Below, in pieces: positions 17,732 through 37,750 of a DNA stretch of 64,000 nucleotides. The stretch spans positions 1,922,001 through 1,986,000 of the forward strand of contig BLLK01000022.1 of assembly GCA_021927905.1 (NCBI GenBank). The letters are read 5' to 3'. Origin of the DNA: Chaetoceros tenuissimus. Taxonomy: Eukaryota > Bacillariophyta > Thalassiosirophyceae > Chaetocerotales > Chaetocerotaceae. How positions within the stretch are numbered: position 1 is the stretch's first letter; each line of letters starts with the position of its first letter. Below the pieces are notes generated by a model that was given only the letters and a program-made list of their open reading frames with translations, was not told the origin of the DNA and searched no databases. Position numbers and translations under genes: made by a program.

Positions 17732-19261
17732 TCACTCATTTGGATCTTCTTTCTTTTTCCGAGAAAAGAAGCTTTTGAAAGATAAATGATCATCATCTGT
17801 AAAGTTTGTCTCTTGAGCATATGAAATGTCATTATCATCATTTCCAGTATTCGATGCATTTTGTCTCTCCACAGTTGCAGCAGAAGCTAAAACGTTAGGC
17901 TCACTATTCTCATCAACATCATTGTCCAAATTTGTGCTGAATCCAGCTAAAGAGCTGATGTGAGGGGCAGATGGCATTCTTTTTGAAGAATTATCAAAAT
18001 TTCCAATAGATGCAAGATCTACCTCAGCCCTGCGACTGTCACTCTCTTTACCGCTTAACATCACAGAATCATCACTGGGTCCCTCTCGATGCATTTCCAA
18101 TTGTACCATCTTTCGTTTTGTATTCAATGCATAGAAATCTTCCACTACAAGGTTGAAGTTTGAAATTATTTGCGAGTCTTCGTCCAACAAGTCAGGACGA
18201 AAAATTGTAATGGCAAGAGTTTCATAATATGGAATGTCTTCATCGCTCTTGCGCAAATTATGTACCTTGTGGTAAATAAAGATGAGCATGTTGAAAGTTC
18301 CTTGTGATGGTTGAAAAATCATTCGAAGAATAGCCAAAGTGTCTCTCGTAGAATTATTTCCATTGAATATACCTAACTCAAGGAGATATTCAAGAAAGCC
18401 AAACACCCAGACACAATTAAATGCTAATATATACATGAAAGCCTGGATTGTGATTGTACGAGCTGTTTCCTGGGCATGTTTCAAAGTTTCCATCCTATGC
18501 TGAATTTCTTCTGCCGCTTCAGCATTCATTTGCGATCCTCCTTCTTCATCTTCCTTGGTATTCTCGTTAGCTTGCTTCAATTTCCACTTATTCCTGTAAA
18601 AGACAAATGTAATATAAGACATGCAGACCATAAGAGTTATAAATCCAGTGCACAACGTGGCTAGATAAGCTTCATCGTAACTTGCTCGGCCATCCTCATC
18701 ACATTCTTCACTACCATCTTCACAAGGAGGTACATACGATGCGCAGTAAGGGTCGAGTGGTCCTGGATTAATAGTGTTCGACACTTGGGCTGTAGGGATA
18801 CCGATACAGCATGCGATACCAAACAAAAGTAACGGAATCTCTATATATCTTCGTATTTTCTTCTCGCTCATATTGAATCCTAGTGAACACAGGTAATATA
18901 TGTTCAGCATACCATTGAAGCAAAAGACAAATGAATTCCCAATCAAATAAACCATCCCTTGAACCTTGCATGTAGTTTGGTTACCGTAGGATGGCATTTC
19001 AAAAGGATATGGCATATCTTTTGGCATCGGTACAGTCGATAGAGCTATAGATATAGATGTACATATGTCAGCTATACATAACCATGTTATGATACGATGA
19101 TAGGTAGTGCTCAACTGTGACTTGGTTCTGAAAATGATGGAGAGGATGATGAATGAGGATACAGCTGAAATAGAGGCCGTTGAAATTCCTAGCACGATTG
19201 TAGATTTCTTGTAGTAGAAAGAGTAGGGTACATTCATGTCACTGGTAGGCATATTAGGCAT
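17732..19261 (-). CDS. Seven-transmembrane GPCR-like receptor
   Basis: A 509-residue protein with an apparent seven-TM layout. TM1 is about residues 21-43, TM2 55-76, TM3 100-127, TM4 140-158, TM5 198-222, TM6 275-297 and TM7 315-335. Cys98 before TM3 and a cysteine-rich second extracellular loop (CASYVPPC, residues 173-180) fit the GPCR disulfide. A long charged third cytoplasmic loop contains a Glu-rich coiled stretch. The C-terminal tail of about 150 residues is polar and acidic. It resembles the broad cAMP-receptor/secretin-like group of protist receptors, but I cannot name a ligand. It is divergent from a second seven-TM gene 460 bp away. Confidence 0.75.
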   Translation of the reverse strand: MPNMPTSDMNVPYSFYYKKSTIVLGISTASISAVSSFIILSIIFRTKSQLSTTYHRIITWLCIADICTSISIALSTVPMPKDMPYPFEMPSYGNQTTCKVQGMVYLIGNSFVFCFNGMLNIYYLCSLGFNMSEKKIRRYIEIPLLLFGIACCIGIPTAQVSNTINPGPLDPYCASYVPPCEDGSEECDEDGRASYDEAYLATLCTGFITLMVCMSYITFVFYRNKWKLKQANENTKEDEEGGSQMNAEAAEEIQHRMETLKHAQETARTITIQAFMYILAFNCVWVFGFLEYLLELGIFNGNNSTRDTLAILRMIFQPSQGTFNMLIFIYHKVHNLRKSDEDIPYYETLAITIFRPDLLDEDSQIISNFNLVVEDFYALNTKRKMVQLEMHREGPSDDSVMLSGKESDSRRAEVDLASIGNFDNSSKRMPSAPHISSLAGFSTNLDNDVDENSEPNVLASAATVERQNASNTGNDDNDISYAQETNFTDDDHLSFKSFFSRKKKEDPNE

Positions 19262-19721: not shown

Positions 19722-21215
19722 ATGATCTCAAAAAGTATATACGCAGCGCAGATAGTAAGATGCATCACGGCTTCTATATCACTAGTTGCATCTTCTATTT
19801 TGAGTCTCATGATCATCACTTCTGAAAAGGGTTTCAAATCTCCCTACAGCCGAATCATCTGGGGGCTAAGTCTAGCTGATATACTACAGTCTTTGAATTT
19901 TCTTCTAAGTCCATTCCTCTCTCCAAAAGAAAATCCCGATTCAATCTTCAGCAAAGGATCGGTAGAGTCTTGTGAGGGTACAGGATTCTTTGGAAGTATA
20001 GGAGGAACTGCCATTCCACTGTACACGCTTTTCCTTACATATTATTTCCTCCGTAGAGTGAAATACAAGGTTAAACCAGAGCAATTTGCAAAGTTTGAGG
20101 AGAAATTGATTTGTTCCCTGATTTGGATTTTTTCCATCGGAACAAACATTGTTGCTCTTGCAAAAGGGCAAATCAATGCAACTAAGTATGGTAGCATTTG
20201 CATGATTGCATCTCGACCATACGACTGTGCTACAAATGACACCAAAGAGTGTACGCGAGGAGAAAAGGCAAAGTTATATTCCGTGGTTACTCTAATTGTT
20301 CCAATTGTGATTTCATTCCTATGCCTCTTTGCTGTTTTGGGTGTATTTACCTGTCATGTTTACAGTATTGAGAAACATCTCGTTTCGCGACAAAAAGAAG
20401 CAGAAACTGATAGCGAACAAAAACCGTTGAGAGTAAAGAAAGTGGTTCAAGAGCAACTAGACACTAATAGGGAGGAATTATTAGCCAAATACAAGCAAAA
20501 CAACACTAGCAAATCTCGTATTTCGACAGATGCTTCTCGAGGAAAGAGTAGTAATGACTCTGAAGGAATAGGTCAAAAGTTTAACTTCATATTGCCATCT
20601 TCGTTGGATGATGACAGTCCTACTGCTCTACAGGATGATCATCTACAAAAACTTGAATCAGAAGATGAAAAGAGCAGCAACTCTCAGAAAGACCACCCAC
20701 AGCAACCTCAACCACAAGGGATGGCTCTTACCAAAGCGGCCGGTCTTCAGTCTATACTCTACATTCTTGCATTTATGCTTGTCTATAGCGGACCAGTGAT
20801 TGCGCTCTTTCTGAGATTCTCCAAAAAAGAAAATACTGACGCCAATTTTTGGATCAATTCCTTGTTTCTGCCAATCGGAGGCTTCTTGAATATATTGATT
20901 TATACACGTCCAAAAGTCAAAGCTCTCAGGGAGTTGATACCAGAACTCTCAAATCTCCTTTGCTTTCTAATTGTGATTGCTTTTGGAGGCGAATGTCCTT
21001 CCCTCGTTGATTTGCAATTGTGGAGTTCAGATGATGATCATCCAAATAATGCGCTAGATGATAATGGTAATGATCATGAAGGCAATCATGGTATGACAGC
21101 GTGGATGAAGCGAGTTGGCTGGTATGTGAGCGAAAATGATATTAATATTGATGAGGAAGTGTATAAAATTATGAGAGGAGAAGTTCCTCAACGAAGGGCT
21201 GATGAAGAAATCTAA
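19722..21215 (+). CDS. Second seven-transmembrane GPCR-like receptor
   Basis: A 497-residue polytopic protein with the same plan as its divergent neighbour. TM1 is about residues 10-32, TM2 44-65 (GLSLADILQSLNFLL), TM3 92-110 after Cys84, TM4 127-147 and TM5 188-213. A very long cytoplasmic loop (about 130 residues, rich in Ser, Asp and Gln) follows, then TM6 (LQSILYILAFMLVYSGPVIAL) and TM7 (LFLPIGGFLNILIYTRPKV). The ending NILIYTRPK parallels NMLIFIYHKV in the neighbour, which supports common descent. The tail is acidic with His/Asn/Asp-rich stretches. No introns are evident. Ligand and G-protein coupling are unknown. Confidence 0.75.
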   Translation: MISKSIYAAQIVRCITASISLVASSILSLMIITSEKGFKSPYSRIIWGLSLADILQSLNFLLSPFLSPKENPDSIFSKGSVESCEGTGFFGSIGGTAIPLYTLFLTYYFLRRVKYKVKPEQFAKFEEKLICSLIWIFSIGTNIVALAKGQINATKYGSICMIASRPYDCATNDTKECTRGEKAKLYSVVTLIVPIVISFLCLFAVLGVFTCHVYSIEKHLVSRQKEAETDSEQKPLRVKKVVQEQLDTNREELLAKYKQNNTSKSRISTDASRGKSSNDSEGIGQKFNFILPSSLDDDSPTALQDDHLQKLESEDEKSSNSQKDHPQQPQPQGMALTKAAGLQSILYILAFMLVYSGPVIALFLRFSKKENTDANFWINSLFLPIGGFLNILIYTRPKVKALRELIPELSNLLCFLIVIAFGGECPSLVDLQLWSSDDDHPNNALDDNGNDHEGNHGMTAWMKRVGWYVSENDINIDEEVYKIMRGEVPQRRADEEI

Positions 21216-21653: not shown

Positions 21654-22802
21654 ATGGTTTCTCTTACTCAAGAAATAATCGATCTACAATCCCATCTCCG
21701 ATGCATTCAAGATATCAAGGAAGATTGGAGGGATGACGATTGTCGAAAGAAAATCATGGATGCTATCCAGAATACAAGAAAACTGCTATCCGATGCATTT
21801 GGACAGAGTTTGCACAACTTGGAAGTATTTCGACCTAATGAAAACGCTGTTGAGAAAGTGGTGGAGGAGTTTCCGGAGTCTATTGCCTTTGAAAATGACA
21901 AAGGGAATCTCCCGATTCACAGTACAACTGCAAATGACCATAACATTTCTTCTTTGAAGTACATACCTTTGCTAGCCAGAGAAGGTGTGCGACACAATGT
22001 TGGCGGCGAGGGAAACAGAGGAGGATTACTAGGAGGAAATATTTCCGGTAGTCGCAATTGTTTACAGAATCTAGTTAGTACTGGGCATTTGTTTGTACAA
22101 AACAAGGACGATCAATCTGTGAAGATTCTGAAGAAGTTGAAAGAAGAAGGATTGTTGGTAAAGGACGATATTACTGATCATGATCTTATATATTGGAGTG
22201 GAGGCGAGTGGATGGTGAAGCGATTCAAGTTTTTCTTGCAGTGGGACCCAAATGCAGTAGTGAATTATTCAAAGGATGACCTACCATTAATGCATCATTT
22301 TGCAACGGACCATTTCGATGACTTCAAGGCTGTCCTCGGAGTCATGTTTGAATGCTACCCCAATGAGGCAGGCCATTTATTTCAGAAGGATAATGCAGGG
22401 ATTACAGCGTTCGAGAAAGCATGGAAATCATATGGCGAAGAAAAAGTAATGAAAGCAATCAATTCAATCTTTTCACCACAAACAAGCTTTCCTATCCTAC
22501 ATCACGCTCTAATTCAAGCACCGAAGTACAAGGATGCATTCATGGAGTGGTTCCCATGGGCATTTCATCTCAGAGATCATAACGATAGAACATTGATCCA
22601 AACAATGTTGGCAACGGGAGCTAATTGTGTGAAAGAATACAAAACAGTCTTTGCATCCATGAGTGATGATCAAATTCGAACAAAAGATCCTGTTACGACG
22701 CTATATCCGTTCGCAGCAGTAGCAAGAGGGGAAGAAGGTGACTTGCAAAAGTCTTTTTATTTGTTGCGCCGTCAGCCAGACGTTCTACAGAGACACGGTT
22801 GA
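21654..22802 (+). CDS. Ankyrin-like paralogue 1 of the six-gene family
   Basis: A 382-residue soluble protein; function unknown. The layout shared by all six copies is: an N-terminal helical segment (MVSLTQEIIDLQSHLRCI) with FGQSLH near residue 45; a first ankyrin-like unit (VEEFPESIAFENDKGNLPIH); the signature KYIPLLAREG followed by NVGGEGNRGGLL; further ankyrin-like helices (YPNEAGHLFQKDNAGITAFE, FPILHHAL, LRDHNDRTLIQTMLATG); and the ending MSDDQIRTKDPVTTLYPFAA then FYLLRRQPDVL. It lacks the basic Lys/Arg tail of most siblings and stops soon after the last shared motif, so its C-terminus may be truncated. It has a single exon. Confidence 0.85.
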   Translation: MVSLTQEIIDLQSHLRCIQDIKEDWRDDDCRKKIMDAIQNTRKLLSDAFGQSLHNLEVFRPNENAVEKVVEEFPESIAFENDKGNLPIHSTTANDHNISSLKYIPLLAREGVRHNVGGEGNRGGLLGGNISGSRNCLQNLVSTGHLFVQNKDDQSVKILKKLKEEGLLVKDDITDHDLIYWSGGEWMVKRFKFFLQWDPNAVVNYSKDDLPLMHHFATDHFDDFKAVLGVMFECYPNEAGHLFQKDNAGITAFEKAWKSYGEEKVMKAINSIFSPQTSFPILHHALIQAPKYKDAFMEWFPWAFHLRDHNDRTLIQTMLATGANCVKEYKTVFASMSDDQIRTKDPVTTLYPFAAVARGEEGDLQKSFYLLRRQPDVLQRHG

Positions 22803-22934
22803 GCTTTCGAATTAGAAGTGCAAAACCGTTTTTGTTCCAAGACGATTACAGCTCTACCTGTGTCCAAGTCTATACTTGAATCAAGACTGTAACTATTTTA
22901 TAAGCCCACTGCATATTTATGTGAATCTATATTA

Positions 22935-23798
22935 TTAAGCAATGACAGGTCTAAAATGAGTCTTCTTCACTGTTTTCAAAATGATCTTATCCAAAACGTT
23001 TGCAATCAATCCACGAAGTGGGAGCAGCACTTTGAATTTAAATGGTTGACCCCACTCCCGAGCACCAAGTGCAATTTGTTCAAGCAGCATGGTGCATGCT
23101 TGCTTTACGTCTAAGATGACACCTTCTTTAAATTGTGCGGGAGGAAGGTCTGCTCCAAAATCCATCCTTCCAGCGTTCAAGTTAGTTCCCTTCACCTCAG
23201 GGAAATTGATTAGCTGAACAACTGGTGAATCCTTTCCATACGAATCCAACAATTCAATCCGCAGAGCATTTACAAAACCAGCCATAGCATGTTTCGAAGA
23301 ACAGTAAATGGTACGATATGGTACACCAATAAGCCCAGCAACGCTACTTATGAAAACAATACGAGACGAAGATGATTTCGGCACTATTGGTAGAAGAAAA
23401 TGCAGACAACTAATCACACTCGTCACATTGAGTTTAATCATGTACCCAATGGAATCAACATCTTTGATCTCTTCAAAGTAACATCCTTGCGATCTTCCAG
23501 CATTCAATATGACTACATCAAGTGTACCCATTGTATCTTTGATGGATTCCATAGATTTCTTGATATCTGCTTCATTTGTAAGATCGCAAACAAATATTTC
23601 CGCTCTGGGAGAACCTAGGTTGATACATTCATCTGCAACTTTTGCAAGTGTATCTTTGCTTCGTGCCAAGAGTGCAAGTGATGCCCCTTGTTTCGCGAAT
23701 TGCTTCGCTAGTTCTAATCCTATCCCAGAGCTCGCACCTGTAATCAGAACGTTTTTTCCTTCTGATGTCCATTCATTTTTAGACTGAAATGATCCCAT
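22935..23798 (-). CDS. Short-chain dehydrogenase/reductase (classical SDR)
   Basis: A 287-residue NAD(P)-dependent oxidoreductase. The Rossmann motif TGASSGIG is at residues 20-27, NAG at 99-101, the catalytic Ser is in FISSVAG (150-155), and YxxxK is Tyr165 and Lys169 (YCSSK). The layout resembles DHRS7/11-beta-hydroxysteroid-dehydrogenase-like lipid or steroid reductases. There is no clear signal peptide (MGSFQSKNEW); Gly2 might allow N-myristoylation. The C-terminal hydrophobic stretch could contact a membrane. The gene lies on the opposite strand between paralogues 1 and 2 of the ankyrin-like family and has no visible relation to them. Confidence 0.93.
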   Translation of the reverse strand: MGSFQSKNEWTSEGKNVLITGASSGIGLELAKQFAKQGASLALLARSKDTLAKVADECINLGSPRAEIFVCDLTNEADIKKSMESIKDTMGTLDVVILNAGRSQGCYFEEIKDVDSIGYMIKLNVTSVISCLHFLLPIVPKSSSSRIVFISSVAGLIGVPYRTIYCSSKHAMAGFVNALRIELLDSYGKDSPVVQLINFPEVKGTNLNAGRMDFGADLPPAQFKEGVILDVKQACTMLLEQIALGAREWGQPFKFKVLLPLRGLIANVLDKIILKTVKKTHFRPVIA

Positions 23799-24225
23799 GC
23801 TGTCTTGTTTGTCGTTAGCCTATCTGTAGCTAGCTAGGCCTTATTTTAATTATTAGTGTGCTTTGAAATACGTTTACTACAGGTAGATGAACTTTCTTGA
23901 TAATGATGAGGAGTATCTTCTTCTTGATGTTCAGAGATGGATCTTCTTTTCATCAGTAATAAGTGTTCGGTTCATAAAAAATCTTGTTTGACACCAGTCA
24001 AAATTTGAAATTCATCTCAATTAGCTCTCTTGACTTTCTTGACTTCTGTCTCTCTTTTTTCATTTTAACAATGCGCTCACCATTCACCATCATGTTAACA
24101 TTCGCTTCATCTATCATCATCATCGCCTTCCACATCGTGGCGTCTATTTGAAGTCTATCTAAAGTAGTCTATCTAAAGGTTTTCTTGATATCATATCTCA
24201 ACATCTGATACCAGCAATACACATC
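23799..24225. promoter_or_regulatory. Divergent promoter region of the SDR gene and paralogue 2
   Basis: The stretch around 23990-24050 (CAGTCAAAATTTGAAATTC, then CTCAATTAGCTC, then TTGACTTCTGTC) recurs upstream of paralogue 3 near 25600-25660. The proximal part, with AGTCTATCTA and CATCTGATA and ending AATACACATCATGAC, is also shared. The promoter was therefore duplicated with the gene. Confidence 0.6.
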
Positions 24226-25468
24226 ATGACTTCTCTTGCGCAAGAATTACGAGACCTCAAGTCTCAGCTTCAAATCGTTGAAGAGATTAGGAGCGAGTGG
24301 GAAAAAGACAAAGAATGGGAAGAGGGTATGACAGATCTAGTGAAAGATACTAAAACAAAACTAGTGGAACTTTTTGGGCAGAGTTTGCATAGACTGGAAA
24401 GATTTGACCCTGGTGAGCGAGCAGTCGAGAAGGTAGTAAAAAAGATTCCATCTTGTCTGTCTTTTGTTATTCGTGGAACAAGACTTCCGATACAAAGTGC
24501 TGCTTCCAGCTTCTATGTTTCGTATGAAAATCTTTCTTCCGTGAAGTACATTCCATTACTTGCTAGAGAAGGTGTAAAACACAATGTTGGTGGTGAAGGA
24601 ATGAGAGGAGGTTTACTATGTGGAGATGTTTTGCATGATCTTGTATGCTCATCGCATCCTGAGCATCCAAAAGAAAAGGATAGAATATGCGTGGATGTCT
24701 TTGAACAATTGAAGAAAGAAGGACTGTTAATGAAGGAAGATATTCGTAATCATGATCTTATCTATTTGAGTGGAGGTCCTTCATCGATCAAAAGATTCAA
24801 ATTCTTCGCAGAATGGGATCCAATTATAGTGGAGGATTACTCCTGGAATGGCCAACCATTGATGCATCATTTAAATAGCAATGGATGGACTAGAAAATTT
24901 TGAACCTGTTCTTGAAGTTTTGCTGGAGAAATACCCAAATCAGGCAGGTTATCTCTTTCAAAAGAATAATGCAGGTATCACTGCGTTCGAAGAATTGGAA
25001 GAAAATGCAATAGAAGAAGAGATTATGCAGTCAATCAATTCAATCTTATCACCAAAATGCAGCTTTCCTATCCTTCATCATGCTTTAGTTGCTGTGCCAA
25101 AATATAGAGACTTATTCCAAAACTGGTTTCCGTGGGCTTATAGTCTCAAAGACCACAACGGTAGATCTCTACATCAAGCAGTTTTGGCAGCAGACGGCAA
25201 TTGTGTAAAAGACAACATCTCTATATTTGCATCAATGAGTGACGATCAGATTCGCACAAAGGATCCTGTGAACACACTCTATCCATTCGCAGCAGTAGCG
25301 AGTGGCGAAGAGGGAGATTTGCAAAAGTGCTTTTATTTGTTACGTCGACAACCATGTGTGTTGGATCCTTGGTCAACAGTAGTACGTCACCACGACAATC
25401 CAAGAAACAAAAGAAGAGAAAGAGATCACCTTCGCTATTATCGTAGTATCGCACAATACCAAAAATGA
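24226..25468 (+). pseudogene. Ankyrin-like paralogue 2, frameshifted copy
   Basis: This has the same architecture as paralogues 1 and 3 and is closest to paralogue 3. The reading frame breaks at about 24880. The upstream frame (24226-24903) ends soon after QPLMHHLNS, and the rest continues in another frame (24881-25468) with GLENFEPVLEVLLEKYP. No GT-AG intron explains the switch. A second one-base difference relative to paralogue 3 near 25387 (GTCACC against GTCGACC) moves the C-terminal Lys/Arg tail out of frame. Two independent shifts argue for decay rather than a sequencing error, though the conserved body suggests recent inactivation. A read error at the first site cannot be excluded from one sequence. 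Confidence 0.7.
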
Positions 25469-25814
25469 AAGATTATTCTGTAAATATATAATATAATATA
25501 ATGTAAAAAATTCTACATTTACAACTTTCAATCTACAAATCTTCTCAATTTTATTTTAATCTTATTTTCAGAAGCTTTCGTAGAATGAAGAAGAAATCCT
25601 TCTTTTTGACACGAGTCAAAATTTATATTCGTCTCAATTAGCTCTTTGACTTCTGTCAGGATTTCCAAAACCTTTTGATCCGACGGAGAGAGCAACACCA
25701 CAGCAAAACAGAGAAGAGGCATCACTATTTCTTTTTGAAAAGCAGTCCACTGTCGAGTCTATCTACCCTGTACATATCCCATTATCTGATAGCCAATCAA
25801 TAGAAATACACATC
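25469..25814. promoter_or_regulatory. Promoter region of paralogue 3
   Basis: This 346-bp spacer contains the duplicated block near 25600-25660 (GAGTCAAAATTTATATTCG, CTCAATTAGCTC, TTGACTTCTGTC) also found upstream of paralogue 2. No other gene is seen. Confidence 0.55.
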
Positions 25815-27059
25815 ATGACCTCTCTTGCACAAGAACTACGAGAACTCAAGTCTCAGCTTCAATTTGTTGAAGAAATTAGGAGCGTATGGGAACAAGAAGA
25901 AGAATGGGAACTGGGTATGACGGCTCTCGTAAATGATACTAAAAGTCGACTAGTCGATCTGTTTGGCAAGAGTCTTCATGTTCTTGATACGTTCAATCCT
26001 GACGTATCATCGCTCGAGAAGGTATTGAAAAAGTTCCCTGAATCTCTTGGTGTTGAAAATGAAAAAAGAACTCTTCCAATTCACAGTGTTGCTTCAGAGT
26101 ATAAACTGGCGTGTTCTGTGCTGTATATTCCATTGTTAGCTAGAGAAGGTTCTAAGCATAAAATTGGCGGTGATGGAAGTAGAGGTGGTTTGTTGGGAAG
26201 GAGGAGAGAGGGAAACAGTTTAGATACACGAAATTGTTTGCAGAATCTTTCAAGTATACGTAATGACAGGTATGAAATGTGGAGGGACCCATACTGTGTA
26301 GAGGTTTTTGAAGAGTTGAAAAGAGACAGACTGCTAGTGAAGGAAGATATTTTTGATTATGATCTCATATTCTGGAGTGCAGGCGAGGGGACGATAGATC
26401 GATTCAAGTTCTTTCTAAAATGGGATCCGGATGCAATTGAGAATTATTCCAAAAAGCATGGAACACACTTGATGCATCATTGTGCAATGGGATCGTTTTA
26501 TGACTTTCGAGGTGTATTAGAATTTATGCTGGAGTATAATCCACATGAAGCAGGCTTTCTCTTTCAAAAAGATGAAGAAGGAATAACAGTATTCGAGAAA
26601 TTCTATGATCGATTTAATGAGAAAGATGTGATGTCTCTGATTAATCAAGCCATTTATGAAAGCTTATCACCAAAATGCAGTTTCCCCATTCTTCACCATG
26701 CTCTAGTTGCTGTGCCCAAATATAGAGATTTATTCCAAAAGTGGTTTCCATGGGCATATAACCTCAAAGACCACAACGACAGATCATTGACCCAAGCTAT
26801 CTTGGCAGCTGGCAATGAATGTATAGAAAAGAACATCTCCGTCTTTGCATCAATGAGTGATGATCAGATTCGCACAAAGGACCCAGTCACTACGCTATAT
26901 CCATTTGCAACAGTAGCAAGTGGTGGCGACTTGCAAAAGTGCTTTTACTTGTTACGTCGACATCCCTGTGTATTAGATCCTTGGTCAACAGAAGTACGTC
27001 GACCACGACGATCCACCAAAGGAAAGAAGAGAAAGAGATCACCTTCACCATCGTCATAG
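25815..27059 (+). CDS. Ankyrin-like paralogue 3 of the six-gene family, basic tail
   Basis: This 414-residue copy has all family blocks: MTSLAQELRELKSQLQFVEE, FGKSLHVLDTF, EKRTLPIHS, YIPLLAREG, IGGDGSRGGLL, AGFLFQKDEEGITVFE, FPILHHALVAVPKYRDLFQ, LKDHNDRSLTQAILAAG and DDQIRTKDPVTTLYPFA. It ends with a strongly basic tail (RRPRRSTKGKKRKRSPSPSS) that looks like a nuclear localisation signal. It is the intact sister of frameshifted paralogue 2. It has a single exon. Function is unknown; ankyrin-type helices suggest protein binding. Confidence 0.88.
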   Translation: MTSLAQELRELKSQLQFVEEIRSVWEQEEEWELGMTALVNDTKSRLVDLFGKSLHVLDTFNPDVSSLEKVLKKFPESLGVENEKRTLPIHSVASEYKLACSVLYIPLLAREGSKHKIGGDGSRGGLLGRRREGNSLDTRNCLQNLSSIRNDRYEMWRDPYCVEVFEELKRDRLLVKEDIFDYDLIFWSAGEGTIDRFKFFLKWDPDAIENYSKKHGTHLMHHCAMGSFYDFRGVLEFMLEYNPHEAGFLFQKDEEGITVFEKFYDRFNEKDVMSLINQAIYESLSPKCSFPILHHALVAVPKYRDLFQKWFPWAYNLKDHNDRSLTQAILAAGNECIEKNISVFASMSDDQIRTKDPVTTLYPFATVASGGDLQKCFYLLRRHPCVLDPWSTEVRRPRRSTKGKKRKRSPSPSS

Positions 27060-27730
27060 CTGCATCATTGATATGTGAATATATAAATATGTATGATATT
27101 TTGTATCTAATCAAAATACAATTATTGTTTACAACTGTAAATATATTATAATGTAAAAGTTTCCTAAATTATGCAACTTTCAATACATACAAAGCTACTC
27201 ATCGCAATATGAAACATGAAGCTAGTGATGCTGTAAAAAATATTATCTTTTACTAGCTAGAAGAACTCGCAATGTTCCAACAATAATCTTTCCATACCGA
27301 TTGCACATTCATTTTTCCATTTCAATTTTACATCATTGTTCATTCCATTCTTTCTAAATTATCTCAAATCACTAAAATAGCCCACCCGCCAAAAATTGAA
27401 AAGTTGACACGACTCTTGACAAGATCCAACCAGATCCAACAGACAAGGAAAGGCAGGAGTGTGCACCTCTTTTTTCACTTTATTGCACGTATCACCATTC
27501 ATCTGAGTACACAGTTCCTACTCTATCCATTCAAATACTACCTTATCTTGTTCGAGTGGTAGACATAAGAGACAAAGAAGAGAGAGAGGTGCTCCATCAG
27601 TATTGACAATAAGATTACGATCAAGGCACATAATAGGACATATACATCTAATAGAGACACATCTCGAACATTACATTACAAGAAAGCAGTCGAGTATAGA
27701 TATAACTTCAGTCCAGAAAAGTAATTCATC
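27060..27730. other. Intergenic region, 0.67 kb
   Basis: It holds the 3' flank of paralogue 3 and the promoter of the WW-domain gene. It is AT-rich with a purine-rich stretch at 27565-27590. I see no gene. Confidence 0.45.
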
Positions 27731-30700
27731 ATGGGAAACGAAATCTCAACACAGACTCCAGACATTGACGAACAAAAGCGAAAAGATAAACCAGCCTATG
27801 TAGAATTCTTAGCATCAGCAGGCAAGACCATCGGTCAAGCATCCGGTGCCGTATGTGGTTCACTCAACGATACATTCCAAGAAGAAGAAGAACAAACACG
27901 CAATCGACCATCACATCTCAAACCACAAACTTCGGAATTTATGAATCCTGAAAACGACGACCCACTTCAATCCAACCCCATGTCGCAATTATTCGCACGA
28001 GCATTATTGAATGAAGTCACTGACAACCCATCTACCATGACACCTATGAAAATGGCCGAACGCGAAAAAAGACTCTTACGAGCACAACAACGTGCGAATT
28101 CTACATCACGTCAAGGGATGCGTGCCATTGGCGCCAGGGGAGATTTACGATCGCAAATTGAAGCTACATCACAGCGTATGATACCTTCCAACATTCTTTC
28201 CGAACATAAAGCACAACAAACAGAAATGGAAGAATATTTCGGTAAACATACAGTGACGATTGGATTAATGATGAGTCGAAAGGATGTACATGGTCATCCT
28301 GATACCGTCACTCGACAGACTGCGTTTGACTTTAATGAATTGCAAGATCGGGATTATAATTATGTTTCTTCCACTAGTACAGAAGGATGGAGAGCGGGGG
28401 GAGGTGAAAAAGGTGGTATGTCCGTTATCCAACAACAGAATGATTCCTTGTCGAATTCACATTCGAGTGAACCGGATTTTGATACTCAGAAACCCATGGG
28501 ACAAAAGATTCCACAGCCGGATTTTGTTCATGTCCCAATCATTCATATTGATTGTGAGTCCGAGGCTGCGGTCAATGGTGTCATTGCTGCCTTGGCGAGG
28601 GGGGAAGTCTTTATTCCACACATGAATGTTATGCCAGAAGCTATTGGTGTCAATGGAATCAGTCCACCTGATCTTGTTGTGCGTTTTGGGTGCGAACGGA
28701 ATGAAGATTTTCCACCGGAAGAATGGCCGAATTGGTGTCTTGAATTTATGCATAATCAATTGTATGAATACTTTGAAGATGCTGGTGCGAGATGGATGAA
28801 ACGACCATTTCAAATGACTCTTGCAAAGAAAGTTAGATGGAAGACTGTCAAACATATGAATAAATTCTTTGCACATTCCGAAACTGTCATTAATTCCTGG
28901 AGAGAAAATGGACCGCAATACTTGGATCCTCATCCTGCTCATATTGATGGTGGAGCCACGCCAGAAGAAGTGAATCGTCCACATGGAATTTATTTGTTGA
29001 GAAATGGAAAGCCTACCAATTACTTTGCACCAAACTTTGATCCGCCATATACTACCAAAATGACTAGAAGTTTGTTGCAAAATGTCATTGCAAAGTCTTG
29101 GGATAAAAAGAAGAGGGATTGGAGTACTGCTCCTGTTGCTTCTGTCACTCCAAGTCTTTTGTTTACCACCATGTGTGGTTGTGCGGAACCAAATCAAGGT
29201 GGATTCATCGCGAGAGAAGCAACGAATCACTTTAGTCCTGTTGCAGGTGGGTCTTTCTTTGGAGATAGTACCAATGATTTGGCAATGAATACCAGTATTC
29301 AATCGGAAAGAAAGTTGATGAATGACAAAATTATGCAAAATGAGACCATGAGAAAGCATACCATTGGGAATCAACAGGAACAGAAAAGTTTCAGTGCTGC
29401 ATCTCCAGCTCGTGATAATTCGTCTGTTGGTTCGAGAAGAACCGAATCTTCTGCAGAAGATAGTCATGATTATACTCGAGATATGAGTGGATACTTGCAA
29501 TCACCAATGAAAAATCAATCGCCAATGAGAGAGAGTCCATACAGTGAGTCAAAGTATGGAATGTCCCAAAATGATCAAATGAAATCGCCACTTCAAAAAA
29601 GAAATATGACTAGTGCAACTACGAAAACACCACAAGTGAATAATACACATGCGGGCAATCCAAAGGATCCATATGATATTTTCAATGGTTTGAGCGATGA
29701 CGATCCAAGTCCAGAAAAAGCAATTGCTGAGGTAGATGACTCTCATCATCAAAGAAGTGTCAACAATATTTCACCAGTGGAAGGTGGACAACGTCAACAT
29801 TCTACAAATATGTCTGTGGCAGAATCTCAAACAACCGTTCCTACAATGAATCGTTCTTCCAAGTTAATTGAACAAGAGCGTGAGAGGCGGAAACTTCGTG
29901 AGGTTGAAAGAGAGAAAGAGCGCAAGAAGATTGACGAGCTTGAACTTGCTATTCAAGAAAAGCTTCGACTTCACGAAGCAAGGAAGAAGCAAGACATGGG
30001 TATGGAGCCAGAGCCAGAGTCTCCAATGTTGAGCGATGCTGAAGCAAAGGTACGTCAGACCATCTTTTATTACTTCTCTTAAAATTTGGATTCAACTGAC
30101 TAGATTTCAATAGAAAAAGAAAAAGTTGGAGAAGAAAGCAGCAAAGAAGGAGAAGAAGCGTCTTAAGAAGGAACGCAAGGAGCGTGAACGAAGCAGAAGT
30201 ATTCAAAGAAACAGTGAGGAGGATATTTGGAATTCAATGTCTGGAGCAGTCGGAAAGGAAAATCACGAAAACCAAAGATTGGCGACAGACCCTGTCAACT
30301 CAATGAGTCCTGGTACAAGTGGACATAATGGAAGAAGAACAATTGATGGAAATGTGCATTCTTCTCATGACAGTTCATATTTCCCAGTGAACCTCAATGG
30401 AACTGCATCACCTAAAAAGCGACAGAATGTCTTTGTTCCAAACTCTCCAGCTTCAAGTAATAACATGGAGATATCATCCACACCATCCATGGACTATTCA
30501 CTTGACACTGCATCTCTATTAGGAGATGGTTCTTTGGTCGGTGGTCAGTTTGCAGGAGATGGATCTGTTGTAACAATGGGAACCAATGCTACAGAGGACA
30601 AGAGTTTGTTGAGTTATGTCACTCGTTCAACAGTCCATGATGTCAATAATAGATTTCAGAAAAGGAAGGAGGAAGCAATGAAGCAACCATCTAGCGAGGA

Positions 30701-30899
30701 CGATATCTCTCTATCTTTAATGGCATCAACAAGTACCGGTGGTGGATATGGTGACGAAGAAGTACCATCCGATGAAGACTTATTTGCAATTGGTTGGGCG
30801 AAGGCATTAGATCCATCTTCAAACTGTTACTACTACTTTACATTAGATAGAACAAAGACAGTATGGGAAAATCCATTAGCTGAAACACAAGCAATATAA
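27731..30899 (+). CDS. Large WW-domain protein with N-myristoylation-like start
   Basis: Exon 1 is 27731-30049, the intron 30050-30113 (GTACGT...CAATAG, 64 nt), and exon 2 30114-30899. The product is 1034 residues. MGNEIS at the start fits N-myristoylation. A globular region of about 250 residues (VPIIHIDCESEAAVNGVIAA through PDLVVRFGCERNEDFPPEEW and onward) is compact and well composed but not recognised. A disordered Ser/Asn/Met-rich part follows, then a highly charged coiled coil (ERRKLREVEREKERKKIDEL; KKEKKRLKKERKERE) that spans the intron. A WW domain closes the protein near residues 1000-1028 (GWAKALDP, NCYYYF, KTVWENP). WW domains bind proline motifs. A signalling or scaffolding role at membranes is inference. 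Confidence 0.85.
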
Positions 30900-31322
30900 A
30901 TTGTATGATGTATCAGTAATGCAATATATAATTCACTAATATTATTTAAACACGGAAATTGTTTGAAGTTTGCCCAAGTCTGAACTTTACAGGGGGCTTC
31001 CTCGTCTCATTGAATTTCAATGTTTTTCCAAGCATCAATTGCGACAAAATGGGATAGTCTGAAGAAGGTCCTATTATAATATTGTACCGAGAAGAGCTGG
31101 CTTTGTACCAAGTATTCTCCACAGCATCCAGATGAAGTCTGAGCGACATCCCACAATAATTAGTTTGATTGATGAGAGTTGGCTTTGTCCTATCGAGCAT
31201 GCCAAAAAGAAATGAAGATATCAAAAAGCGCATAGTGGACGATACAATTTAGATTTATAGAATATACATAATGTTTTGATTTCATATTCATAAATAACTT
31301 TAGTAGAACATGTTGAGTTTTT
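30900..31322. other. Intergenic region between convergent genes
   Basis: It holds the 3' flanks of the WW-domain gene and paralogue 4. The part next to paralogue 4 resembles the 3' flank of paralogue 5 (both read AACATGTTGAG or AACATGCTGAG near the stop). A 95-codon minus-strand frame at 30946-31233 is unsupported. Confidence 0.5.
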
Positions 31323-32582
31323 TCAATTACTCTCATTTCTCTTTCTTTTCTTCTTCCCACCTCTCTTTCTTTTCTTCTTCCCATCTGTCTTTGTAACCTG
31401 CTCTGCAATTCTTGGTTGACTTCGATCGAGTACACCAGGCTGTCGACGTAGTAAATAAAAGCTCTTCTCCAAGTCACCATCTTCGCCACTTGCTATCGCT
31501 GCGAAGGGATACAGTGTGGTGATTGGGTCCTTTTCACAGATCTGCTCGTCACTCATTGATGCAAAGACATGCGCATTTTTATGTAATACTGTTGCACCGG
31601 CTGCCAAGATTGCCTGTATCAAGGATCGATTGTTATGGTCTCGTAGGTTATAGGCCCAAGGAAACCATTGCATAAAGAGAGTTTGTGTTTTCGGCGCATG
31701 AACTAGTGCATGATGAAGGATTGGAAATCGCTTTGATGGCGAAATTATCTCATGGAGGGCTGTCATTGTTTCCTTTTCTCCATACTTCCGAATAGCCCTT
31801 TCCACTGCTGTCTGCTGTCTGCTGAGATTCTTCTGGAATAAATATCCAGCTTGTTCTGGGTATAATTCTAGAGTGACTTTCAATATTGCTTTGAAATGAC
31901 ATAGTTTCCGATTATTGACCAAATAATACATGAACATTTTCCCGTCCAACAAAAAACCTGAAACGGATTCAGGGTCTAACTGCAGTAAAAACTTGAATCG
32001 CATGTGACAACCTTTCCATGCACTTTCTCTAATGAGATTGTATTCTGTTACATCTCCTTTCTTGAGAAGGCCGTCCTTCTTCAATGTCTCCAAAACTTTC
32101 ACAATACCTTCATCAAAATCTTTTGATAGATTTCCATCACCATTCATGATAGCAGCAAGCTGCAGCGTATTCAATCTAGCATTATCCCAAGATGGATCTG
32201 AAGTTAAAAGTCCTCCTCTTTTTCCTTCACCGCCAACATTATATTTGAAACCTTCTCTTGCCAACAAAGGAATATATTTTAATGCGTGGTTAGAGGTATA
32301 CCATAGACATGCTTGAATTGGAAGGCGTTTCTTCTCATTCTCGATCTTCATTGCATCTGGAAAGTTCTTCACAACACTCTCCACTGTACTTGTCTTTGGT
32401 TCGGACTCTGCAAGAGCATGAAGACTTTGACCAAATGCATCCACTAGTTGCTTCTTTGTTGACTGGACTGTCTTCATGATATCTTTTAAACATTTCTCGT
32501 CCTTCCAGTCACCAATGATGTCTTCTCTGATACACTTCAGCTGCATTTCGAGGTCAAGAATTTCTTGCGTAAGGGATGTCAT
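31323..32582 (-). CDS. Ankyrin-like paralogue 4 of the six-gene family, basic tail
   Basis: I start at the ATG at 32582, because MTSLTQEILDLEMQLKCI is the conserved family start; the upstream in-frame Met at 32672 is probably leader. The 419-residue protein has VVKNFPDAMKIENEKKRLPI, LKYIPLLAREG, NVGGEGKRGGLL, YPEQAGYLFQ, FPILHHALVHAPK, LRDHNNRSLIQAILAAG and DEQICEKDPITTLYPFAA, then FYLLRRQPGVLDRS. It ends with tandem Lys/Arg blocks (KKKRKRGGKKKRKRNESN). It belongs to the minus-strand subgroup (QICEKDP instead of QIRTKDP). Confidence 0.87.
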   Translation of the reverse strand: MTSLTQEILDLEMQLKCIREDIIGDWKDEKCLKDIMKTVQSTKKQLVDAFGQSLHALAESEPKTSTVESVVKNFPDAMKIENEKKRLPIQACLWYTSNHALKYIPLLAREGFKYNVGGEGKRGGLLTSDPSWDNARLNTLQLAAIMNGDGNLSKDFDEGIVKVLETLKKDGLLKKGDVTEYNLIRESAWKGCHMRFKFLLQLDPESVSGFLLDGKMFMYYLVNNRKLCHFKAILKVTLELYPEQAGYLFQKNLSRQQTAVERAIRKYGEKETMTALHEIISPSKRFPILHHALVHAPKTQTLFMQWFPWAYNLRDHNNRSLIQAILAAGATVLHKNAHVFASMSDEQICEKDPITTLYPFAAIASGEDGDLEKSFYLLRRQPGVLDRSQPRIAEQVTKTDGKKKRKRGGKKKRKRNESN

Positions 32583-32973
32583 TGTAGTATGTTTATATGG
32601 ATGCACTCTTGAACTTACTATGACTGTGGTGAGAAAGGAAAGATGAGAAAACTTTGGCTTTGCAGTTTGCAATACTTTGTGCTATTCGTCATTGTATATC
32701 TCATAGTCATTGACAACTGTCAACGTTTTATATCTTTCAGATTTAATACGTCAAGTACGTACCATGAAGTCGAACGAATTTCAACATCATGTTTTACTTT
32801 GATTTATGACAGTTGACTTTGTAATAACAAAAAAATGACATACAGATACATGCCAAAAACAATTGTAAAATGCGCAACATGGACGAGACAATTTAGATTT
32901 ATAGAATTCATATATTATATATTCATGTTTCTGCATATTACCATTTGACTTTAGTAGAACATGCTGAGTTTGT
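32583..32973. promoter_or_regulatory. Promoter of paralogue 4 and 3' flank of paralogue 5
   Basis: A conserved element reading TTTGTGCTATTCGTCATTG on the + strand sits at 32676-32696, about 95 bp upstream of the start codon. It is repeated at 35909-35929 before paralogue 6. A shorter form is at 34345-34356 before paralogue 5. Confidence 0.6.
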
Positions 32974-34206
32974 TCAATTACTATCACCTCTCTTTCTTTT
33001 CTTCTTCCTGTCCGCCGTTGTAACCTGCTCTACACTTCTAGTTTCACTCCGATCAAGCACACCAGGCTGTCGACGTAGCAGATAAAAGCTCTTTTCCAAG
33101 TCACCATCTTCGCCACTTGCTACCGCTGCGAAGGGATACAATGTAGTGACTGGGTCCTTTTCGCAGATCTGGTCATCGCTCATGAAGGCGAAAGCATTAG
33201 GATTTTCTTTCACTGACTTGCCCCCAGCTGCCAAGATAGCCTGAATGAGAGATCGATTGTTATGGTCTCGTAAGTTAGTAGCCCAAGGAAACCATTGCAT
33301 GAAGAGAGTTTGAGTTTTCGGAGCATGAACAAGTGCATGATGAAGGATGGCGAATTGCTTTGATGGCGAAATTATCTCATGAAGAGCTGTCATTGTTTCC
33401 TTTTCTCCAAAATTTGAAATAGCCATTTCAACTGCTGTCTGGTCATCGGTATGTTTTTGGAACAGATATCCAGCCTCCTCTGGGTATAATTCTAGAGTGA
33501 CTTTCAGTACAACTTTGAAACGATCCAAATCTTTTGCATCAATCAAACAATGCAGGAGGGGTTTTCCACCATATGTATACCCTTTTAGAGCTCCAAGATC
33601 CAATTGTAATAAATACTTGAATCGCAATGGACAGCATTCCTGAGAACCATATATAATGAGATCGTATTCTGTTACATCTTCTTTCTTAAGAAGACTGTCC
33701 CTCTTCAATATCTCTAAAACTTTTACCATACATGCATCTAATGCTGTTGTACCAGTACCAGTACTACTATCCATGGCCAAAACAAGCTGTAGTGTATTAT
33801 ATGTACCATTGTTCCAAGATAGATCTGAAGTCAATAGTCCTCCTCGTTTCTCTTCGCCGCCAACATTATGTTTCATACCTTCTCTTGCCAATAAAGGGAT
33901 ATATTTTGCTCCATATTTAGTTATATTCCACATACATGACTGAATTGGAAGTCTATTCTTATTCCTATTCTTCATTGAAACAGGAAATTTCGTTACTACA
34001 GTCTCCACGATACTCTCCTTTGGCCTGAATTTCCCTAGTCTATGAAGACTCTGTCCAAATGCATCAACTATTTGCTTATTTGCTGACTGGACAGTATTCA
34101 TTAGAGCTTTCAAACATGTCTCATCCTTCCAGTCGCCAATGATGCCTTCTCTTATGCACTTCAGTTGCATCTCGAGGTCAAGAATTTCTTGTGTAAGGGA
34201 TGTCAT
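32974..34206 (-). CDS. Ankyrin-like paralogue 5 of the six-gene family, basic tail
   Basis: This 410-residue copy starts MTSLTQEILDLEMQLKCI. Its blocks match paralogues 4 and 6: FGQSLHRLGKFRP, NRLPIQS, AKYIPLLAREG, NVGGEEKRGGLL, YPEEAGYLFQKH, FAILHHALVHAPK, LRDHNNRSLIQAILAAG and DDQICEKDPVTTLYPFAA, with a short basic tail (KKKRKRGDSN). Single exon, same strand as paralogues 4 and 6, in tandem with about 300-400 bp spacing. Function unknown. Confidence 0.87.
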   Translation of the reverse strand: MTSLTQEILDLEMQLKCIREGIIGDWKDETCLKALMNTVQSANKQIVDAFGQSLHRLGKFRPKESIVETVVTKFPVSMKNRNKNRLPIQSCMWNITKYGAKYIPLLAREGMKHNVGGEEKRGGLLTSDLSWNNGTYNTLQLVLAMDSSTGTGTTALDACMVKVLEILKRDSLLKKEDVTEYDLIIYGSQECCPLRFKYLLQLDLGALKGYTYGGKPLLHCLIDAKDLDRFKVVLKVTLELYPEEAGYLFQKHTDDQTAVEMAISNFGEKETMTALHEIISPSKQFAILHHALVHAPKTQTLFMQWFPWATNLRDHNNRSLIQAILAAGGKSVKENPNAFAFMSDDQICEKDPVTTLYPFAAVASGEDGDLEKSFYLLRRQPGVLDRSETRSVEQVTTADRKKKRKRGDSN

Positions 34207-34483
34207 TGTAGCTTGGCAATAATGGATGTATACTTTCGACTAATTGTGGTAGGATATGGGCTGAAACTGCTTGCTGCAACTCTCATCGGGATGCCTTTGT
34301 TTTTCTACTCGTCTCAAGTCTGTGTTCCGAATGGTTGTGTCAAGATTCGTCATTGTTTCTGTCCACGATGTCATAGACATTCATCATTCTATGGATCATC
34401 CTATACATCAAGTACGTACACATTAGAATGTACATTTATGTAATTTAATTATTTCTACACGTTAGTCTACCATTTGAGTTTGT
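34207..34483. promoter_or_regulatory. Promoter region of paralogue 5
   Basis: The spacer holds ATTCGTCATTGT at 34345-34356, the core of the element shared with paralogues 4 and 6. Nothing else is recognised. Confidence 0.5.
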
Positions 34484-35731
34484 TCAATTACTTTCACCTC
34501 TCTTTCTTTTCTTCTTCCCACCTTTCCTTCTTTTCTTCTTCCCACCTGTCGTTGTAACCTGCTCTGCAATTCTAGTTTCACTCCGATCAAGCACACCAGG
34601 CTGTCGACGAAGCAGGTAAAAGGTTTTCTCCAAGTCGCTATCTTCGCCACTTGCTACTGCTGCGAAGGGATACAGTGTAGTGACTGGATCCTTTTCACAG
34701 ATCTGCTCGTCACTCATGGATGCGAAAACAGTAAGATGCTCATTTACCACTTTCGCACCAGCTGCCAAGATTGCCTGTATCAAGGATCGATTGTTATGGT
34801 CTCGTAGGTTATAGGCCCAAGGAAACCATTTCATGAAAAGAACTTGTTTTTGTGGGGCATGAACAAGCGCATGATGAAGGATAGGGAATCGCTTTGATGG
34901 TGAAATTATCTCATGGAGAGCTGTCATCATTTCCTTTTCCCCATACTTCTGAATTGCCCTTTCCACTGCTGTCTGCTGTCCATCGGTATCCTTCTGGAAT
35001 AAATATCCAGCTTGTTCTGGGTACAATTCTAGAGTGACTTTCAATATTGCTTTGAAATTATCTAATTCTCGGCTGATCACCAATTGCATGAACGTTTTCT
35101 CGTTCTTCACAAAGCTTGAAATGGATTCAGGGTCCAATTGTAATAAATACTTGAATCGCATTGGACAACATTTCCAAGCGCCATAAGAAATGAGATTGTG
35201 TTCTGTTATGTCCTCTCTCTTGAGAAGGTCGCCCTTCTTCAATGACTCTAAAACTTTTACAATACCTGCATCGAATACTATTGTACCGCTTTCACCATTC
35301 ATGTTTACAGCAAGCTGCAGTGTATTCAATCTGGGGTTTGAAGATGGATCTGAAGTCAATAGTCCTCCACGACTCTCTTCGCCGCCAACATTATGTTTCA
35401 TACCTTCTCTTGCCAACATAGGTATGTATTTTAGTGCACTAGATGTATACCATAGACATGACTGAATTGGAAGGCGTTTCTTCTTATTCTGTACCTTCAT
35501 TGCATCTGGGAATATCTTCACTACAGTCTCCACTGTGCTTTCGTTTGGCTTAGACTGTACTAGCCTATGAAGACTCTGTCCAAATGCATCCACTAGTTGC
35601 TTCTTTGTTGACTTGACCATCCTCATCAAATCTTTTAAACAAGCCTCATCCTTCCAGTCACCAATTATGTTTTCTCTGATACACTTCAGCTGCATCTCAA
35701 GGTCAAGAATTTCTTGTGTAAGGGATGTCAT
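34484..35731 (-). CDS. Ankyrin-like paralogue 6 of the six-gene family, basic tail
   Basis: I start at the ATG at 35731 (MTSLTQEILDLEMQLKCI); the in-frame Met at 35755 lies in a leader (HPYKHTT) also present before paralogue 4, which shows that the 5' flank was copied with the gene. The 415-residue protein has the full set of blocks (LKYIPMLAREG, NVGGEESRGGLL, FPILHHALVHAPQ, LRDHNNRSLIQAILAAG, DEQICEKDPVTTLYPFAA) and a double basic tail (KKKRRKGGKKKRKRGESN). It is closest to paralogue 4. Confidence 0.87.
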   Translation of the reverse strand: MTSLTQEILDLEMQLKCIRENIIGDWKDEACLKDLMRMVKSTKKQLVDAFGQSLHRLVQSKPNESTVETVVKIFPDAMKVQNKKKRLPIQSCLWYTSSALKYIPMLAREGMKHNVGGEESRGGLLTSDPSSNPRLNTLQLAVNMNGESGTIVFDAGIVKVLESLKKGDLLKREDITEHNLISYGAWKCCPMRFKYLLQLDPESISSFVKNEKTFMQLVISRELDNFKAILKVTLELYPEQAGYLFQKDTDGQQTAVERAIQKYGEKEMMTALHEIISPSKRFPILHHALVHAPQKQVLFMKWFPWAYNLRDHNNRSLIQAILAAGAKVVNEHLTVFASMSDEQICEKDPVTTLYPFAAVASGEDSDLEKTFYLLRRQPGVLDRSETRIAEQVTTTGGKKKRRKGGKKKRKRGESN

Positions 35732-36172
35732 GGTAGTATGTTTATATGGATGCACTCTGAACCTATATGAATATGGATGTAGATGTGGTGATAAGGAAAG
35801 GTATGGACTGAGATAAAAAAATCTAGAGAGGGTGTGAAAAGGCGTGAAGGCTCTCTCTCTATTATTCTCGCGACTGCCTCTCTCTCGTTCTCTAATTTGT
35901 GCGCCATATTTGTGCTATTCGTCATTGTAAATATCGTGTGCCATTTACGTCTGTCAACAGACTGTATCTTTTTAGAACTATTGGTAAATAAAAGTACGCA
36001 CGTTGTTGACCATTTCTATGCGAACACATCATTCATTCTTCATCAGTCATTTTCATCACACATCTAACAAAAGTAAAGAGAAGGTGATGTAATGATAAAT
36101 GAAATACAGCATCACTAGTATTGTACATATAAGCTTTACATATCAATAAAATATTGATTCAACCTTGACAGT
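35732..36172. promoter_or_regulatory. Divergent promoter region of paralogue 6 and the P450 gene
   Basis: It contains the GCTATTCGTCATTGTA element at 35914-35929 shared with paralogue 4, and a CT-rich tract around 35848-35892. Confidence 0.55.
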
Positions 36173-37750
36173 ATGATGCTTCTTCCTCGTCCATTTAGAA
36201 TAAGGGATACTGCTACCAGCATCACCCTATTCCTTTGTATCTTTGCAGCAGTTTGCATTCTCGAAGCATCTGCATTTTCAACCCGAAGCCAAAGACTGCA
36301 TACTACTCCAAAACTCACTCGTCAAGCAGTTACAGAAGAAAGTACCGAGATTATTTCTGACAAAGACCGCATCGCATCATTGCCTCTACCTCCTCATCGA
36401 TCACCAGGTCCTTTCCGTGGAATAAGAGAAAGTATCTCACACTTGACAGACGGGAAACGTTTTGCAAGAAAAAGAGCCGAAGAACTCGGAGATGTATTTT
36501 TAACCAATGTATTTTTCAAACCTACCGTGATTATCGGGGGTCAAGAAGCCATTACAGAGTTCGTATCGGGCACTGAACTCAAGTCAAAAGTCATTCATGC
36601 AGCATTACCAGATACATTCAAAGAATTGCATACGAAATGGGGTACTCTCAATTTAGACTCAACTGATACGCTTCATAAGGAAGCTAGATCATTATTTAGT
36701 GAGATATTCAGTGTGGATGCACTTGAATCCTATCTTCCCGTGATTGAAGAGAGCTTGGAAATGTATGTGCAATCCATTGTAGAGAGAATCAAGAAGAATC
36801 CACAAGAGGAGATCCAAATCGTTCAGGAGTTGAAAGAATTGTGTTTGCAAATTTTTAGTAAGTTATTCTCTGGTGCAGAGCTTACAAAGGAGCAAGTGCA
36901 AATGTTTGATGATTACAACTCGGCACTTCTTGCATTACCATTTGAAAAGAAAAAGATTGAAAAGGGGAGAGATGCACTCAAAACTCTCAAGAGTGAAATG
37001 CTTTCAAGATACAAAGACTGTCAAGCAGGAACTGCAGATCCAGCGTCGGCATTTTACAGCGAAAAGGTTCAAAAATGGTTTGGTTATGATGAAGATAGAG
37101 TCTGTACTGCAACTGTTTTGTTTATATGGGGCGCATACATTGAATGTGCAGCACTAATGACAAATGCATTGACCATTATCAAAAATGAGAATCCAGATTA
37201 CATTGAAATCATTGCAGAAGAATATCAAACTCAACTAAAGTCAGATTTATCACTTTCAGACTTGGAATTTTGGTCGAATATGCAGCAAACTTTGGGTGTT
37301 TTGAGAGAATCTCTTCGTTTGATCCCACCAGCTGGTGGAGCAACGCGATACAGTGACGAAGACTTTGAATTTCGTGGTTATAGAATTCCAGCGGGTACAG
37401 CAGTAATGATGGATCCTCGGGTAGGCAATACAGATCCAAAGCTCTTTACAGAACCTGACGAGTTCCTACCTTTGCGATGGGTGCCATCAGATAGCTCGAC
37501 TTCGTCATCTTCTGGAGGTTGTCCATTGAAGGGAACTGCTCTCAAGCTTGGATTTGGAAGTTGGTTTCCAGGTGGCTTTGGAGCACATCAATGTCCTGGT
37601 ATTCCTCTGGCTGAGCTCACATCGAAAATCTTTCTTGGTAAGGTAGCGACTGCCTTTGATAATTGGAGTTTCGATGAAGTGAAGTATGTTGAAGTTCCAA
37701 TCAAGATTCCCACCGATAATTTTGCTGTCACATTTTCATTACGCAATTAA
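36173..37750 (+). CDS. Plastid-targeted cytochrome P450, divergent
   Basis: A 525-residue haem-thiolate enzyme. The N-terminus is a signal peptide (ATSITLFLCIFAAVCILE) followed by ASAFSTR, the plastid-import motif. The K-helix ExxR is in LRESLRLIPP (about residue 377). The haem loop is FPGGFGAHQCPGIPLAE with the ligand Cys near residue 473. Its spacing differs slightly from FxxGxxxCxG, with Gly where Phe is usual. The I-helix (FIWGAYIECAALMT, about 317-330) lacks the usual acid-Thr pair, with Cys after Glu. In CYP74 and CYP8 types, loss of that Thr goes with isomerase or lyase chemistry instead of mono-oxygenation. The closest overall look is the CYP120/CYP26-like group. Single exon. The substrate is unknown. 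Confidence 0.85.
   Translation: MMLLPRPFRIRDTATSITLFLCIFAAVCILEASAFSTRSQRLHTTPKLTRQAVTEESTEIISDKDRIASLPLPPHRSPGPFRGIRESISHLTDGKRFARKRAEELGDVFLTNVFFKPTVIIGGQEAITEFVSGTELKSKVIHAALPDTFKELHTKWGTLNLDSTDTLHKEARSLFSEIFSVDALESYLPVIEESLEMYVQSIVERIKKNPQEEIQIVQELKELCLQIFSKLFSGAELTKEQVQMFDDYNSALLALPFEKKKIEKGRDALKTLKSEMLSRYKDCQAGTADPASAFYSEKVQKWFGYDEDRVCTATVLFIWGAYIECAALMTNALTIIKNENPDYIEIIAEEYQTQLKSDLSLSDLEFWSNMQQTLGVLRESLRLIPPAGGATRYSDEDFEFRGYRIPAGTAVMMDPRVGNTDPKLFTEPDEFLPLRWVPSDSSTSSSSGGCPLKGTALKLGFGSWFPGGFGAHQCPGIPLAELTSKIFLGKVATAFDNWSFDEVKYVEVPIKIPTDNFAVTFSLRN

Follow-up and report, generated by a model that had tools for sequence, protein, structure and literature searches.

A large, tandemly expanded family of divergent ankyrin-fold proteins with variable loops and a constant C-terminal region in the diatom Chaetoceros tenuissimus

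In this work, we describe a family of ankyrin-fold proteins in the diatom Chaetoceros tenuissimus that comprises at least 111 gene-like units and has grown mainly by head-to-tail tandem duplication. The starting point was a stretch of 64,000 nucleotides with a G+C content of about 39% (contig BLLK01000022.1, positions 1,922,001 to 1,986,000), hereafter the window, in which a sequence-only reading had described a six-copy family of ankyrin-like proteins. Six related genes do lie at the places and on the strands given there, but the idea of a six-copy family had to be abandoned in view of the genome searches. Both the fold and the expansion are well supported, whereas the function of these proteins we infer. 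The six genes, in window positions, are:

21654 to 22802, plus strand: copy 1, intact frame of 382 residues, basic tail absent
24226 to 25468, plus strand: copy 2, broken into the frames 24226-24903 and 24881-25468
25815 to 27059, plus strand: copy 3, intact frame of 414 residues, with basic tail
31323 to 32582, minus strand: copy 4, intact frame of 419 residues, counted from the ATG in agreement with the other copies
32974 to 34206, minus strand: copy 5, intact frame of 410 residues
34484 to 35731, minus strand: copy 6, intact frame of 415 residues, used here as the reference for residue numbers

The five intact copies (382-419 residues) appear to be readable without introns, and because their proteins can be aligned over the whole length, with 46-78% identity of the other four to copy 6, a chance resemblance is excluded. 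Copy 2, in line with the one decaying copy of the sequence-only reading, is frameshifted near 24,880-24,903, with the first frame stopping at 24903 and the remainder lying in another frame. The protein layout proposed from the sequence is present, but the motifs quoted for it are not exact in every copy: FGQSLH reads FGKSLH in copy 3, FPILHHAL reads FAILHHAL in copy 5, KYIPLLAREG is altered in copies 3 and 6, and three copies show NVGGEE or KIGGDG in place of NVGGEGxRGGLL. The strand-specific ends hold, with QIRTKDP in the plus-strand copies and QICEKDP in the minus-strand ones, as does the variability of the tails, copy 1 lacking the basic one.

The genome searched comprised 41.03 Mb in 68 contigs, and the published assembly of C. 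tenuissimus NIES-3715 is described, in the accessible part of the genome paper, as 41.0 Mb in 85 scaffolds with 38.9% G+C (PMC8613185). With one window protein as query, at least 102 matches were found, an in-frame stop lying inside the aligned stretch, sometimes at the tail, in 14 of the 102 matches listed. A distant member from contig C32 (locus L060) used as query gave at least 113 matches, 11 of them at new places, while one further match overlapped one from the window-protein search. Combined, at least 114 match rows resolve into the at least 111 gene-like units, which occupy 43 clusters on 19 contigs, 25 of the clusters consisting of one unit. The rows are most numerous on contigs C13 (35), C16 and C27 (16 each), C43 (8), C34 and C42 (7 each) and C21 (4), the remaining 21 being spread over twelve other contigs. 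The largest array, on C13, holds 22 units within 43 kb, and in 65 of 68 neighbouring pairs within arrays both genes lie on the same strand, which bears out the local expansion suggested earlier. As a separate count, the pattern DP.T.LYPF occurs 69 times in the genome, against none for its reversed control; three of these places (C14:1610773, C21:457208 and C44:436938) are more than 10 kb from any listed match.

DNA was sampled from part of the matched places, where 89 distinct frames matched, and the 69 frames of at least 385 residues from stop to stop were used for the alignment, the tree and the selection analysis, leaving aside 20 shorter ones. These members come from C13 (29), C16 (15), C27 (9), C42 (7), C21 (4), C43 (3), C34 (1) and C48 (1), which leaves C43, C34 and the small contigs under-represented. 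In the resulting tree, the nearest relative of 64 of the 69 members is on the same contig, against 17 expected. The six window genes do not form a separate clade. The two intact plus-strand copies pair with each other (support 99) and then join a pair located near C16:1,892,000 (100), copies 4 and 6 pair together (99), and copy 5 pairs with a copy near C16:1,860,000 (100). Copies from C21 and C48 are placed among the minus-strand copies (97-100), and the node joining 20 members of the C16 type has a support of 68.

Several more distant or more recent branches were also observed. Two nearly identical copies on C13 (71-1237 and 4387-5553 of locus L044, genome C13:745,301-753,560), separated by only 0.029 synonymous substitutions per site (dS), have near-identical upstream DNA and equal neighbouring frames of 320 residues, which suggests that some 4.3 kb were duplicated recently. 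On C42 (loci L054-L056, C42:156,894-177,900), six of the seven members branch off at a distance and have different N-termini, and three of these six lack the LLR.P motif. A cluster at C34:3,672,816-3,683,439 is another divergent subfamily, which came up with the C32 protein but not with the window protein as query. The genes that stand alone on C33 and C32 are related to the family over their full length (family profile E-values, E, of 6.6e-80 and 3.6e-85); they read LYPF or LLPF at the equivalent place and have no basic tail.

Copy 6 may serve to show how the proteins are organized. Its parts, all on the minus strand, are given below, with the ratio of nonsynonymous to synonymous differences per site (pN/pS) and the indel events taken from the 19 pairs of members discussed further on:

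35576 to 35731, minus strand: residues 1-52, N-terminal helices in the structure model; pN/pS 0.26 and 0 indel events
34808 to 35599, minus strand: residues 45-308, matched to ankyrin structures, with low confidence from about residue 282
35435 to 35461, minus strand: residues 91-99, variable loop 1, from column entropy, its indels being counted for residues 53-125 overall
35357 to 35392, minus strand: residues 114-125, conserved VGGE..RGGLL segment of the 69-member alignment
35267 to 35356, minus strand: residues 126-155, variable loop 2, with the sole nine-codon windows of pN/pS above 1
35057 to 35131, minus strand: residues 201-225, variable loop 3, with the highest indel density
34586 to 34921, minus strand: residues 271-382, constant C-terminal region, with KDP.TTLYPFAA and LLRR.P.V at its end
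34487 to 34585, minus strand: residues 383-415, basic tail, putatively nuclear-signal-like, from its content of lysine and arginine

The ankyrin-like centre anticipated from the sequence was borne out by the match of the model to ankyrin structures and by profile homology to an ordinary ankyrin-repeat frame of the same window (44094-45029, plus strand), which the family profile matches with an E of 2.8e-7 (best shuffle 0.32) and in which Ank_2 scores over its cut-off; the terminal stretch of this frame presumably resembles the start of an AAA ATPase domain. It is thus very probable that the centre has the ankyrin fold, irrespective of which functional reading holds. Across the 69 members, R121 and G122 of the VGGE..RGGLL segment are invariant and G116, G123 and L124 nearly so, D348-F356 of KDP.TTLYPFAA are largely invariant or nearly so, and L373-R376, P378 and V380 of LLRR.P.V are invariant or nearly invariant. 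The tail could be scored in 65 of the 69 members and holds at least five lysines or arginines within seven residues in 53 of them, against 9 of 6,400 body stretches of equal length. In our view, these basic runs look like nuclear import signals of the classical type.

No Pfam or NCBIfam model names the family, as the sequence-only reading had supposed. Pfam ankyrin models gave no match above their curated cut-off in seven window frames, and Ank_2 was matched in 8 of the 69 members at E up to 1, with a best E of 5.2e-4, which should be below the cut-off because an E of 1e-6 corresponds to 29.6 bits and the cut-off is 27.3. Among eight proteins nothing relevant was found in NCBIfam, and one protein searched by sequence against the PDB gave no match; the family profile gave two weak PDB matches, the ribosomal protein eL20 (E 0.1) and the ankyrin protein Avo2 (E 0.16). 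Of the matches from pattern scans, none of 9 was confirmed in IMG/VR and none of 203 in GTDB genomes, and because both scans require two short conserved peptides, distant viral or prokaryotic relatives would be missed.

The fold is a known one, of which the family forms a divergent branch. It shares with the ankyrin repeat superfamily (Ank_2 PF12796, Ank_5 PF13857) the central fold and helix pairs that contain LPIH/ILHH-like and DHNGRSLHQA-like segments, but nearly all members escape the Ank models, and the family has in addition the conserved VGGE..RGGLL insert and the constant KDP.TTLYPFAA...LLRR.P end. A similar end, D(P).TGLYPF followed by LL..NP after ankyrin-like repeats, is found in ankyrin genes of this diatom on C14 and C58 (loci L062 and L063), the first of which exceeds the Ank_2 cut-off. 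This likeness is weak, the profile of the C-terminal cap giving an E of 2.6e-4 for L063 and 0.032 for L062, the latter value not surpassing the 0.031 reached by the best of 2,000 shuffles. In the accessible part of the genome paper, genes with ankyrin repeat-containing domains are reported to be more abundant in C. tenuissimus than in three compared diatoms (PMC8613185), and some genes of the present family may be among those counted. Judged by titles, abstract beginnings and passages, the open-access literature yielded no description of the family, and the main text of a virus-infection transcriptome paper on this species, as far as accessible, does not mention ankyrin (PMC12305248).

The genes are under overall purifying selection, and change is concentrated in the loops. 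The ratio of nonsynonymous to synonymous substitution rates (dN/dS) had a median of 0.26 and a maximum of 0.55 among 136 pairs with dS of 0.05-1, so gene-wide positive selection was rejected. The fast evolution proposed earlier thus applies to parts of the gene only, residues 271-382 being strongly constrained. Regional pN/pS was obtained from 19 of the 2,346 pairs, all close (dS up to 0.8) and independent of one another. It amounted to 0.39 for residues 53-95, 0.51 for residues 91-270 and 0.18 for residues 271-382, and reached 0.63 in the tail (bootstrap 0.44-0.90); in each of 200 bootstraps the value of the centre was above that of the C-terminal region. Eight of 407 nine-codon windows had pN/pS above 1, every one starting at residues 139-146; the peak of 1.46 was equalled in 2 of 1,000 shuffles of columns 1-382 and in 1 of 1,000 within columns 91-270. 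Indels per 100 residues numbered 31.5 in residues 53-125, 42.9 in 126-160, 7.5 in 161-200, 76 in 201-225, 5.5 in 226-280, 2 in 281-382 and 15.2 in 383-415. Because the loop alignments are uncertain, we do not claim positive selection in the loops as proven.

How might such proteins work? The reading that we tentatively favour, with a probability of about 0.45, is that they act in the nucleus as ankyrin adaptors, with binding loops particular to each copy and a single C-terminal partner shared by all. The genes belong to a lineage-expanded, divergent ankyrin-repeat family, each one an uninterrupted frame encoding a predicted helical N-terminal segment, an ankyrin-fold centre and the constant C-terminal region, to which a basic tail is added in most copies. 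The tail would carry the protein to the nucleus, the variable loops would bind partners differing between copies, and the constant region would bind a single partner common to all, so that each copy would act as a regulatory or recognizing adaptor with its own target. A role in recognition or regulation, as suggested from the sequence, fits the loop hot spots and the basic tails, which do not show it. Nuclear ankyrin regulators (IkappaB proteins, Bcl-3, gankyrin and RFXANK) are among the closest known systems, a nuclear location being suggested for the present family by the basic tails of 53 of 65 scorable members.

The main rival, a real possibility, is that an ankyrin family that is dispensable undergoes neutral birth and death in tandem arrays, copies accumulating through unequal crossing-over, while the loops vary for lack of constraint and have no diversifying role. 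A gene-wide dN/dS below 1 throughout, indels tolerated in the loops, the broken copies and the nearly identical C13 pair are all consistent with it, but the persistence of 69 full-length frames, the strong constraint on the C-terminal region even among close copies and the rarely equalled pN/pS peak in one loop argue against it. Another reading, which we think rather improbable, is an intracellular recognition repertoire: upwards of 100 ankyrin proteins of the nucleus, each combining a constant end for signalling with three loops that diversify, would be read out through one partner and might serve defence or self-recognition, for example against viruses coexisting with the species.

Cytosolic or silica-related scaffolds resembling the dAnk proteins, whose basic tail would bind acidic surfaces or nucleic acid instead of importin, seem unlikely. 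Ankyrin-repeat proteins are named among frustule-related diatom proteins, and this diatom forms its setae by an unusual silicification route, in the accessible part of the same source (PMC11151724). The Thalassiosira dAnk proteins of silica formation are also diatom ankyrin proteins, but the present family is tandem, has more than 100 units and is mostly basic-tailed; moreover, no signal peptide or membrane part was noted, although no systematic test was made. Spread of the genes as cargo or remnants of a mobile element would agree with copies on 19 contigs and with the many reverse-transcriptase genes mentioned in the accessible part of the genome paper (PMC8613185), but it is very improbable. 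Relatives are grouped on one strand, which indicates tandem duplication, and no mobile-element domain was matched in seven window frames or among 25 of the 54 families matched by the 69 members, a search that did not cover terminal repeats.

An upstream motif was also noticed and is kept as a lead only:

32687 to 32694, unstranded: CGTCATTG upstream of copy 4
34348 to 34355, unstranded: CGTCATTG upstream of copy 5
35920 to 35927, unstranded: CGTCATTG between copy 6 and the divergent gene at 36173

Within 300 bp upstream, CAATGACG or CGTCATTG was present in 42 of 65 members and in 10 of 47 other frames of at least 200 residues (Fisher p 7e-6), a control in which at least one gene is counted twice and some frames adjoin the same intergenic region as a gene of the family; an earlier and smaller control, limited to window frames, gave 2 of 26. 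With one member per group of dS below 1, the motif was found in a mean of 7.8 of 20 (minimum 5), and shared ancestry may therefore explain much of the excess. Genome-wide, the paired form CAATGACG...GTCATTG gave 35 rows (27 distinct places, such as C34:515035-515053), against 3 for the reversed control, and for none of the 35 was a listed family match as near as 2 kb; with a second arrangement there were 60 rows compared with 12, and 14 of the 60 had a family match within 2 kb. A family-specific promoter element was rejected, as controls carry the motif and the paired form occurs away from the family; the element is therefore widely used in this genome, and the paired sites are likely, by sequence, a common regulatory element of this diatom. 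For bZIP11 and aureochrome of diatoms, TGACGT is a known site, according to the accessible parts of two sources (PMC11142338, PMC4721966).

Other frames of the window, as judged by eye, are short-chain dehydrogenase-like (22935-23798, minus strand, between copies 1 and 2), cytochrome P450-like (36173-37750, plus strand, divergent from copy 6) and, in the neighbouring frames 17732-19261 (minus strand) and 19722-21215 (plus strand), of the look of seven-helix receptor-type membrane proteins, while the end of the frame 30126-30899 (plus strand) resembles a WW domain.

Diatoms account for much of ocean photosynthesis and, to our knowledge, little is known of how they recognize viruses or partners inside the cell. 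A family of more than 100 units that is mostly missed by standard domain models is an overlooked part of this genome, and its layout of constant end, variable loops and basic tail permits specific tests of where the proteins are located, what binds the constant end and how the loops differ among copies.
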